Source: a virus. Taken from it: a DNA stretch of 21,721 nucleotides. The DNA lies in the IMG/VR virus record IMGVR_UViG_3300046007_005134, positions 1 to 21,721 of that record; one strand, 5' to 3'. The position numbers and the translations under genes were made by a program. Below, in pieces: positions 12,720 to 21,286 of the stretch. Numbering within the stretch: position 1 is the first letter of the stretch; each line of letters begins with the position of its first letter. The notes beneath the pieces are model-generated. The model was given only the letters and a program-made list of their open reading frames with translations. It was not told the origin of the DNA and did not search any database.

Positions 12720-12748
12720 ATTATAACAAATTACGCCTTAAATGTCAA
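12720..12748 (-). promoter_or_regulatory. Consensus sigma70 promoter for the leftward operon, leaderless
   Basis: On the minus strand, TTGACA (12748 to 12743), 17 bp, then TATAAT (12725 to 12720): a match to consensus in every base. The ATG of the first gene starts at 12713, exactly where transcription would begin, so a leaderless message is predicted. Confidence 0.85.
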
Positions 12749-12755
12749 TAGTTAT

Positions 12756-12802
12756 TACGCCGCTTACATAATTTATATTACATATATACTAACTACGGCG
12801 TA
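12756..12802. promoter_or_regulatory. Inverted repeat between tandem leftward promoters, possible operator
   Basis: TACGCCG (12756-12762) and CGGCGTA (12796-12802) are a perfect 7-bp inverted repeat 33 bp apart. A further copy of TTACGCC lies at 12731-12737, inside the promoter spacer, 24 bp from the copy at 12755. GC-rich boxes in an otherwise AT-rich control region look like binding sites for a regulator. Confidence 0.4.
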
Positions 12803-12824
12803 TTACTAAGCCACATATGTAGTT

Positions 12825-12853
12825 ATTATATACACTATTTTTTGCCTTGTCAA
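12825..12853 (-). promoter_or_regulatory. Second consensus sigma70 promoter, leftward
   Basis: On the minus strand, TTGACA (12853 to 12848), 17 bp, TATAAT (12830 to 12825). It lies 105 bp upstream of the first promoter and would give a leader carrying the inverted repeat. A seven-codon ORF (ATG at 12816) begins 8 bases after the -10 box. Confidence 0.75.
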
Positions 12854-12962: not shown

Positions 12963-13262
12963 ATGTACGGACTTGCAAAAGTTATCGAATGGAACGGCGA
13001 AGAAGGTTTACTTGAGGACGAGCAAGGTGACATTCTTCGATTTTCTTACGAAGATATTCACCCAAGAGATCTCGATTACGTCGCAATTGGAGTTACTGTT
13101 TTAATTACCGAACAAGGATACTTAGAACTTACGTCAAGTGGTTTTTCACACTATTTGGAATCGGAAACTGATGAACTTGCTTGTTTTCACGAAAACTATA
13201 AAGATGGTGTATGTAACGATTGTGGCGAACAAGTTGACTGGGTTTTAAAAAAGCCTAGTTGA
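12963..13262 (+). CDS. Cold-shock-like protein with C-terminal zinc motif
   Basis: 99 residues, ATG 12963 with AGGAGG upstream; first gene of the rightward block. Residues 2-55 (GLAKVIEWNGEEGLLEDEQG, then DILRFSYEDI and VAIGVTVLITEQGYLEL) resemble a cold-shock OB fold in strand order, though the RNA-binding aromatic motifs are weak. Residues 74-87 hold C-x-H-x7-C-x2-C, a probable zinc site. The gene is preceded by AT-rich DNA with only weak promoter matches (TTGTTT-17-TAGTAT at 12910-12938). As first early gene it could act on nucleic acids or host functions; this is inference. Confidence 0.65.
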   Translation: MYGLAKVIEWNGEEGLLEDEQGDILRFSYEDIHPRDLDYVAIGVTVLITEQGYLELTSSGFSHYLESETDELACFHENYKDGVCNDCGEQVDWVLKKPS

Positions 13263-17311: not shown

Positions 17312-17340
17312 TTGACTTAAATAATCACATTTGCTATAAT
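17312..17340 (+). promoter_or_regulatory. Sigma70 promoter for the ClpP-like gene
   Basis: TTGACT (17312-17317), 17 bp, TATAAT (17335-17340). It lies in the 52-base gap after the polymerase. The start should fall near 17347, giving a short leader with GGAG before the ATG at 17361. Confidence 0.8.
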
Positions 17341-17360
17341 GTAAATAGAATGGAGAACAA

Positions 17361-18143
17361 ATGAAAAATCTAATGTTAATGATCGCGATGTTACTGTCCT
17401 GCGGGGCCTGTAAAGCTAGTCAATCAGGGGACGTTATTGAATTATCAGAAGACAATACAGTTCAGTTGAATTTACCTATTTTTAGCGACACAGCAGCAGA
17501 AGTGCAAAAAAGACTTCTCGAAAAAGACGTTAAGTTAAAAGCAGGAAAGCCGCTTTATTTAGTACTTAATACCCCCGGCGGCAGTATTCAAGATGGTCTT
17601 ATGATTATTGAGACCGCTAAGAGTTTAAAGCGCCCGATACATACTATTAGTATTTTTAGTGCTAGTATGGGATTCGTTATTTCCCAGTATTTAGATAAAC
17701 GTTATGCTCTGGACTCTGCTGTCATTATGACCCATAAAGCTCGGGTGGGCAACGTAGGCGGAGACGTTCCTGGAAGTTTTATTAACATGGCTCAGTATCT
17801 CTTAAATTTTGTTAATAACATTAACGAAAAGATTGCTATTCGTTCTAAAATGGAATTAGACTCTTACAACAAGCTTATCGAGTCAGATTATTGGATGGGT
17901 TCTACTCAAGCTATTGATCACAATTTTATGGATAAAGTTGTGACTATTTCTTGTGATAAATCTTTGCAAGGTTATGCGGAACCTCAAAGAGTTGACTTAG
18001 GATTTTTTGCTGTTACTGTTCAGTTTCACAAATGTCCTTTAATTACTCAACCTAACCTAGTAGAAGGAAATGCTTCAAATATGGATTTGCTTATCAACAA
18101 AAAAGCAAAACTTAGAAACACTTTTCCTCAACTATTTCAATAA
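17361..18143 (+). CDS. Exported ClpP/S14-like serine protease, probable lipoprotein
   Basis: 260 residues, ATG 17361 with GGAG. Residues 1-16 are a signal peptide (MKNLMLMIAMLLSCGACKAS), with LLSC as a possible lipobox; cleavage at a later site is the alternative. The core has the ClpP fold: LYLVLNTPGGSIQDGLMIIE (oxyanion region), S102 in SASMGF, H125 in MTHKA, and D176 in SDYWM, so the triad is complete. Two later cysteines (SCDKSLQG, FHKCPL) may form a disulfide, which suits an extracytoplasmic site. It has its own promoter and lies far from the capsid genes, so a prohead protease role is unlikely. The substrate is unknown. Confidence 0.8.
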   Translation: MKNLMLMIAMLLSCGACKASQSGDVIELSEDNTVQLNLPIFSDTAAEVQKRLLEKDVKLKAGKPLYLVLNTPGGSIQDGLMIIETAKSLKRPIHTISIFSASMGFVISQYLDKRYALDSAVIMTHKARVGNVGGDVPGSFINMAQYLLNFVNNINEKIAIRSKMELDSYNKLIESDYWMGSTQAIDHNFMDKVVTISCDKSLQGYAEPQRVDLGFFAVTVQFHKCPLITQPNLVEGNASNMDLLINKKAKLRNTFPQLFQ

Positions 18144-20285: not shown

Positions 20286-20546
20286 ATGAAGCCAAAAATG
20301 CACAGAAGTCTACCAATAGTGATGATTGAAGCAATCGATCATTGCATGGACACTCCACGTAACTTGCGAGAAGATGTTATGAAGTTTCATGTAGTGGGTA
20401 TTTTGTTTGCTGAAACTAAAGATGCATGGTATTTGGCTAGTTGGTTGTTTATGAAAGATATCAATGACGGTAATAATGAAGGGTTTATGATCGTAAAAAC
20501 CCCCGGCGCTAAGATTACTATACTAGGGCATTTAAATAATGAGTAA
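20286..20546 (+). CDS. Hypothetical protein
   Basis: 86 residues, ATG 20286 with AGGTGA upstream. Sequence is mixed: PIVMIEAIDHCMDTPRNLRE helical, then VVGILFAETKDAWYLASWLF and a final strand region. No signal peptide, metal motif or recognised family. It overlaps the next gene by 8 bases. Confidence 0.5.
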   Translation: MKPKMHRSLPIVMIEAIDHCMDTPRNLREDVMKFHVVGILFAETKDAWYLASWLFMKDINDGNNEGFMIVKTPGAKITILGHLNNE

Positions 20547-20790
20547 GTATTTGTTAATAGTATTCCTAGTGTCACAATTGTGTCTAGGAAATGAACAGAA
20601 ATGTGAAAAAGCATTGTCTGCCTGTGAGGAAGTAATTCACGCCCAAGACAAAGCTATTGACAATTTAAAAAAATCTGTTATAGTTTTAAAGAAAGAGCTA
20701 GAGCAGTCAAAACGAACAACACCTACTTGGGTGTTAATTGTTGGAGGTATAGCGACTGGCATAATCATTAGCTCTGTAGTAAGGAGATAA
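20539..20790 (+). CDS. Exported coiled-coil protein with C-terminal membrane segment, spanin-like
   Basis: 83 residues, ATG 20539. Residues 1-17 are a signal-like segment (MSKYLLIVFLVSQLCLG); SQLC is a poor lipobox, so type I cleavage is as likely. A coiled coil follows (CEKALSACEEVIHAQDKAID, then LKKSVIVLKKELEQSK) and residues about 60-80 (TPTWVLIVGGIATGIIISSV) form a membrane helix. N-terminal export signal plus C-terminal membrane anchor is the topology of unimolecular spanins. Similar CxKALxACxxVI proteins are frequent in podovirus late regions as I recall. Confidence 0.6.
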   Translation: MSKYLLIVFLVSQLCLGNEQKCEKALSACEEVIHAQDKAIDNLKKSVIVLKKELEQSKRTTPTWVLIVGGIATGIIISSVVRR

Positions 20791-20791
20791 T

Positions 20792-21286
20792 ATGAGATTC
20801 TTTATAGCTTGTTTGTTGTTTCTAAATAGTTGCGGTTATTCTGACGATCTTACCTTCACTTGGCCTGCTAAGATTAAGATAGTTTCTACCACTCCTGCAG
20901 CTGAAACAATGCAAATGATTTTAGCTATCCAAGATCTTAATAAATTTTTACCAGAAACAGTAGTTTTTTTTCAAGGCGACACACGTTCAATTTTTCCATT
21001 TCAGATTGTAGTTAGATTAGCTTCAGAGGATAGAGGTAGTTACGCTGGATTAGCTACAGTTTACAATGATTCTTGTATTATTACTATATATCCTGTATCT
21101 GTTAGAAACAACATTGTAAAGACTGTTATGTGGCATGAAATTGCGCATTGTGTCGGCGTCGGTCATAAAGACACTTCTGGTCACATTATGTCTACAAATG
21201 TCCATAACTTTGGAGGATACAGCGAGGAAAAGTTAAAAGTGTTTGCTAATGATTTTATGGCACTTTTCAATAAGGTAAAATTCTAA
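20792..21286 (+). CDS. Metzincin-type zinc metalloprotease, probable lipoprotein
   Basis: 164 residues, ATG 20792 with AAGGAG. Residues 1-14 are a signal peptide with LNSC as a plausible lipobox (MRFFIACLLFLNSCGYSD). The zinc motif is complete: H115-E116-x2-H119-x5-H125 (WHEIAHCVGVGH), with G122 in the metzincin glycine position, and a Met-turn at M133 (SGHIMST). The domain is short for the family. It would act in the periplasm or on the outer membrane. Its place among lysis-like genes suggests degradation of envelope or surface proteins; this is inference. Confidence 0.8.
   Translation: MRFFIACLLFLNSCGYSDDLTFTWPAKIKIVSTTPAAETMQMILAIQDLNKFLPETVVFFQGDTRSIFPFQIVVRLASEDRGSYAGLATVYNDSCIITIYPVSVRNNIVKTVMWHEIAHCVGVGHKDTSGHIMSTNVHNFGGYSEEKLKVFANDFMALFNKVKF

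Follow-up and report, generated by a model that had tools for sequence, protein, structure and literature searches.

Known ClpP proteases form chambers in the cytoplasm or in organelles and rely on an unfoldase powered by ATP. The same fold is used on the periplasmic side, where the serine proteases SppA, SohB and NfeD (S49 and relatives) work without an ATPase, some of them anchored in the membrane, and the S49 site is of the Ser-Lys type. Phages encode ClpP-type head maturation proteases (phrog_94, phrog_133 and phrog_1684), which are capsid-linked. In ClpP of N. meningitidis, the pocket for the IGF loops of ClpX and ClpA is formed by Y67, F87, F54 and other residues (PMC6853987), and the C-terminus of ClpP adjoins the docking pocket, which it is capable of blocking (PMC9823225). 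When no ATPase is present, the substrates of ClpP are limited to short peptides (PMC9753991). No exported or periplasmic phage ClpP was found in the open-access literature searched.

The window, that is, the whole stretch of DNA analysed here, is the 21,721-base virus record IMGVR_UViG_3300046007_005134. Structural genes occupy the minus strand of its left part (portal, phrog_156; major head protein, phrog_9953; and terminase), and its right part is a plus-strand arm encoding an exonuclease, a family A DNA polymerase, a ClpP-like protein, a primase-like protein, an HNH endonuclease and a metallophosphoesterase. The ClpP-like gene (17361-18143, plus strand; 260 aa plus stop), predicted to encode an exported serine protease, lies between the DNA polymerase and primase-like genes, far from the portal and major head genes and on the opposite strand. 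Its ATG start is supported by a ribosome binding site, GGAG, read directly at 17352-17355 (plus strand) and conserved ahead of the start codon in every relative aligned.

A first scan with the window protein retrieved contigs whose proteins were identical or 73% identical to it, and subsequent scans with a growing alignment raised the count to 53 loci and later to at least 129, on virus contigs of 4 to 171 kb. The exported set was defined as 92 deduplicated rows with both C-terminal cysteines, including the window protein and its identical copy; one extra row, whose protein was cut by a contig end, was kept outside the 92.

The product was assigned to ClpP by several routes. Pfam CLP_protease matched residues 27-195 (E 8e-21), the closest solved structures in a PDB sequence search were ClpPs (1y7o, E 2e-18), and the AlphaFold2 model was confident (pLDDT 92.1, pTM 0.85), its ClpP domain superposing at about 2 Å rmsd over about 168 columns (Foldseek E 1e-15), so that the ClpP-fold catalytic domain was placed at 17439-17945 (plus strand). 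The model also contained a long helix matching the ClpP handle. The sequence-only reading had proposed a complete ClpP-type triad, S102, H125 and D176, and the alignment bore this out for the window protein: S102, H125, D176, G74 and M103 corresponded to S97, H122, D171, G68 and M98 of E. coli ClpP (EcClpP), the reference sequence used being in agreement with the expected length and with the known numbering of these residues. The codons lie at 17664-17666 (Ser102, the nucleophile), 17733-17735 (His125) and 17886-17888 (Asp176, the third triad position), all on the plus strand. The active-site Ser and His and both oxyanion residues (Gly and Met) were present in all 92 aligned rows. The third position was Glu in 85 rows, Asp in 5 and Gln in 2, and Asp occurred only in the close relatives of the window protein, indicating that the triad as first described holds for the window subclade and not as a family trait.

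The ATPase-docking face differed from that of bacterial ClpP. At the positions of EcClpP Y62, F82 and F49, which correspond to pocket residues reported in N. meningitidis (PMC6853987), the window protein has V, S and E, without the hydrophobic pocket for IGF loops, and the family as a whole has V or F, G/A/S and K/E. The N-terminal axial loop of ClpP was missing from the window protein, with the signal sequence in its place. The pocket was poorly kept in signal-less ClpP-like proteins of phages too, and its loss is therefore not special to the exported clade.

Directly past the residue matching the pocket-rim L189, the window protein continues beyond the ClpP structures into a C-terminal module of 65 residues (residues 196-260; 17946-18140, plus strand), for which no PDB sequence match and nothing consistent in Pfam was found. 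Its C...CP pattern was invariant, with 26 residues separating the cysteines of the window protein, and the two cysteines pointed out earlier, C198 (17952-17954, plus strand) and C225 (18033-18035, plus strand), were kept across the whole family. We infer that C198 and C225 form a disulfide in an oxidising compartment and that the module caps the old docking pocket. A nearly full-length structural match was obtained with A0A7D3V576 (BFVD; 242 columns, TMq 0.73, 28% identity) of Fadolivirus, which, unlike the phage family, belongs to a giant virus of amoebae; judging from the model, this match takes in much of the C-terminal region.

The N-terminus of the window protein begins with K2 and a hydrophobic core of 9-12 residues, and the predicted signal sequence covers residues 1 to about 20 (17361-17420, plus strand). 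By a composition criterion, an export-type hydrophobic N-terminus was present in 92 of the 92 family rows, compared with 0 of 28 signal-less phage ClpP-likes, which agrees with the signal peptide suggested from the sequence; a check for homologues lacking the signal found it in all full-length members. The window protein is presumably exported by this sequence. The majority of members resembled classical signal peptides (for example, MKFLVIFLLTISTCFA-REI and MNKVLLILLCICSTAIA-KND), while in about one third the catalytic domain was preceded by a hydrophobic segment plus over 40 residues; these members may be membrane-anchored instead of released.

The lipobox that had been suggested for the window protein is possible but not established. 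LLSC (C14) fits loosely, with Leu at -2 and a very short leader, and is not common to the relatives, whereas C17 is shared by the window protein and two 73% identical relatives (CGAC, CSGC and CFGC), with Cys at -3. These three proteins read CGACKA, CSGCKA and CFGCKA at the candidate cleavage region, which can be taken as a non-standard lipobox (C17) or as a signal peptidase I site after C-K-A. The canonical lipobox, [LVI][ASTVI][GAS]C, was found in the family only in L014 and L024 and not in the window protein; most members have no lipobox.

To place the exported proteins among their relatives, they were compared with 28 ClpP-like proteins from the same contigs, which share the ClpP fold and the triad (for example, L060:2419-3042) but have no signal and no C198/C225 pair, and mostly carry Asp at the third position. 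In a FastTree phylogeny of the catalytic domain, all 92 exported-type rows formed one clade (support 0.916), and the signal-less proteins lay outside it. The split of signal and cysteine pair between the 92 and the 28 gave a p value of 1e-26, which is inflated by kinship within a single clade. Signal and cysteine pair were probably gained once, as far as the tree indicates, and the association is therefore not one of 120 independent observations; its weight lies in the fact that neither trait was lost within the clade. In many of these phages, a second, signal-less ClpP-like gene was located upstream of the exported gene, often only a few genes away (L060:2419-3042, L073:3113-3697 and L131:999-1571). 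Obligate pairing of the two was rejected, as about half of 22 records, which may be fragments, had one ClpP gene only, including the 38 kb L004. The exported ClpP-like family is apparently a large viral clade new to description, and apparently confined to viruses.

Based on these results, we favor, with a probability of about 0.68, a ClpP-type serine peptidase that is exported by Sec, needs no ATP and acts during infection, either in the periplasm or on the inner membrane's outer face. Sequence and model contribute the fold, the Ser-His-acid site, the oxyanion hole, the export-type signal and the loss of the pocket, to which the added two-cysteine module, the virus-wide clade and the independence from capsid genes are joined. 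In the proposed mechanism, the Sec signal would take the ClpP-type protein to the periplasm or the outer face of the inner membrane, where a ring or barrel like that of ClpP would still assemble, the Cys198-Cys225 disulfide would form in the oxidising compartment, and the C-terminal module would come to lie over the old ATPase-docking face. As there is no unfoldase, the substrates would be short peptides, or unfolded regions of host or phage proteins that are exported or membrane-bound, and not folded proteins.

A narrower version of this explanation is that of an SppA/SohB/NfeD-like (S49-type) peptidase facing the membrane, which would remove signal peptides or cleave membrane proteins. The fold, the membrane side and the ATP independence are the same, and the anchor-plus-linker form of about one third of the members would suit it, which makes it a credible, if unlikely, alternative. 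However, the site is of the S14 type, Ser-His-acid, with a strictly kept His where S49 has Ser-Lys, and no S49 profile matched in Pfam, CLP_protease being the sole report for all 44 members scanned.

The gene had also been credited with its own promoter, and a putative sigma-70-type promoter, TTGACT-17-TATAAT with an extended -10 (TGC), was indeed located at 17312-17340 (plus strand; 11/12 consensus match). Among four relatives with the same gene order, it was retained in L004, L005 (TACAAT) and L012 (TATAAT) and absent in L013. It is one of only five sequences scoring 11-12/12 in the right half (9.2 kb), where matches at any level numbered 43, compared with 24.2 ± 4.8 in shuffles; the other strong matches are at 12748 and 12853 on the minus strand and at 13259 and 20657 on the plus strand. 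As the promoter is thus not the only strong match, a separate transcription timing is plausible but unproven. On the minus strand at 12720-12853, two perfect TTGACA-17-TATAAT sequences stand in tandem at the divergence of the two gene arms.

Together with the export-type signal and the non-structural position, a promoter of its own would be in keeping with a protein that changes the host surface and excludes later phages (superinfection exclusion), a role that the sequence-only reading had suggested. We consider this doubtful: neither a receptor nor a lysogeny gene nor any known partner in exclusion was found, PADLOC returned no match and thus no link to defence, and the exclusion literature surveyed does not appear to describe such proteases.

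Processing of the phage's own exported proteins, such as lysis proteins, appears decidedly doubtful. It could draw on the same arm, which encodes an exported coiled-coil protein (20539-20790) and a lipoprotein resembling metalloproteases (20792-21286), but these neighbors were kept only in the window subclade, whereas the ClpP-like gene occurs across unrelated contexts. Both neighbors deserve description in their own right. The small protein at 20539-20790 (plus strand) has a predicted export signal, a coiled coil and a C-terminal membrane segment, and its gene adjoins the lipoprotein gene in a spanin-like layout; its library matches (PHROG) were weak only. The protein at 20792-21286 (plus strand) is a predicted lipoprotein (N-terminal LNSC) with a metzincin-like HExxHxxGxxH motif and a weak Peptidase_M10 match; the motif was kept in L004, L012 and L013, with a variant in L005. 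Judging by these motifs, the window phage may export two proteases.

The exported ClpP-like genes were distributed over at least five unrelated contexts. Counted over the 92 rows, with one row falling into two contexts, there were 5 rows in the polymerase-primase context (the window type), 21 in an SbcD-SbcC-helicase arm of larger phages, 21 in a capsid operon, 23 with an HNH/D5-like set, 2 beside FtsH and 21 in others. Considering the 21 capsid-operon rows, and that the best PHROG matches were head maturation proteases (phrog_94, E 6e-17), the protein might be a ClpP-type head maturation protease with an incidentally hydrophobic N-terminus. We regard this as very unlikely, since the PHROG label reflects the shared ClpP fold and the window gene lies outside the capsid module. 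Moreover, the phages with a capsid-operon member own a separate HK97-type head maturation protease (phrog_1028, E 4.5e-39) along with the major head protein phrog_752, and capsid maturation is therefore unlikely as a function common to the family, in line with the non-capsid role anticipated by the sequence-only reading. The capsid-operon members, searched for homologues without an export signal, all kept the export-type N-terminus and the cysteine pair, and a signal-less ClpP-like gene was often present there too. The family is thus like the phrog_94, phrog_133 and phrog_1684 proteases in being phage-encoded and of ClpP fold, and unlike them in its signal, its cysteine module and its coexistence with other head proteases.

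In L014, a full phage FtsH (L014:6874-8673; TIGR01241, 814 bits) was located directly downstream of a lipoprotein-type exported ClpP, and the same was seen in L024. Partnership with FtsH as a general rule was rejected, as a true FtsH was present in only 2 of 22 records and the other matches were weak AAA ones.

To find members outside the virus contigs, five family members were searched with tblastn against 50,697 isolated-phage records, and no match covered 80% of the query, so that no cultured representative was found. A pattern scan of 84,980 bacterial and archaeal genomes, which is blind to divergent cellular homologues with other motifs, returned two clear members, both on contigs with phage genes inside metagenome-assembled genomes (MAGs), and a third locus that was a weak match. 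One of these MAGs held further copies, the examined one being in the same phage gene order, and no member was found in 57 other genomes of the phylum of one MAG. A cellular origin was rejected, as the pattern scan of the 84,980 genomes gave no clear member outside phage contigs. The clear ClpP homology might suggest a cytoplasmic ClpP of the ordinary kind, taken over from a host, but this is highly improbable given the signal in all members, the lost pocket residues, the extra C-terminal module, the missing N-terminal axial loop and the lack of clear members outside phage contigs in that scan.

Compared with bacterial ClpP (MEROPS S14, PF00574), the phage family is alike in fold, in Ser and His, in the oxyanion Gly and Met and, in the model, in the handle helix; it differs in its predicted export, a third residue that is mostly Glu, the lost pocket residues, the absent N-terminal axial loop and the additional two-cysteine module. 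A wider proposal, which we put forward tentatively and at somewhat less than even odds, is that a virus-specific ClpP clade has moved out of the cytoplasm, dropping its ATPase and gaining both a signal for export and a cap, stabilised by a disulfide, over the former docking face. In many unrelated phages it would then serve as a peptidase barrel in the periplasm, attacking or remodelling the envelope of the host. The automatic labels 'head maturation protease' and 'ATP-dependent Clp protease' are likely wrong for the exported clade. If the proposal is true, this clade with its conserved active site would represent a ClpP that functions beyond the cytoplasm and independently of ATP, and would suggest that viruses commonly need, in a way so far unstudied, to cut proteins in the host envelope.
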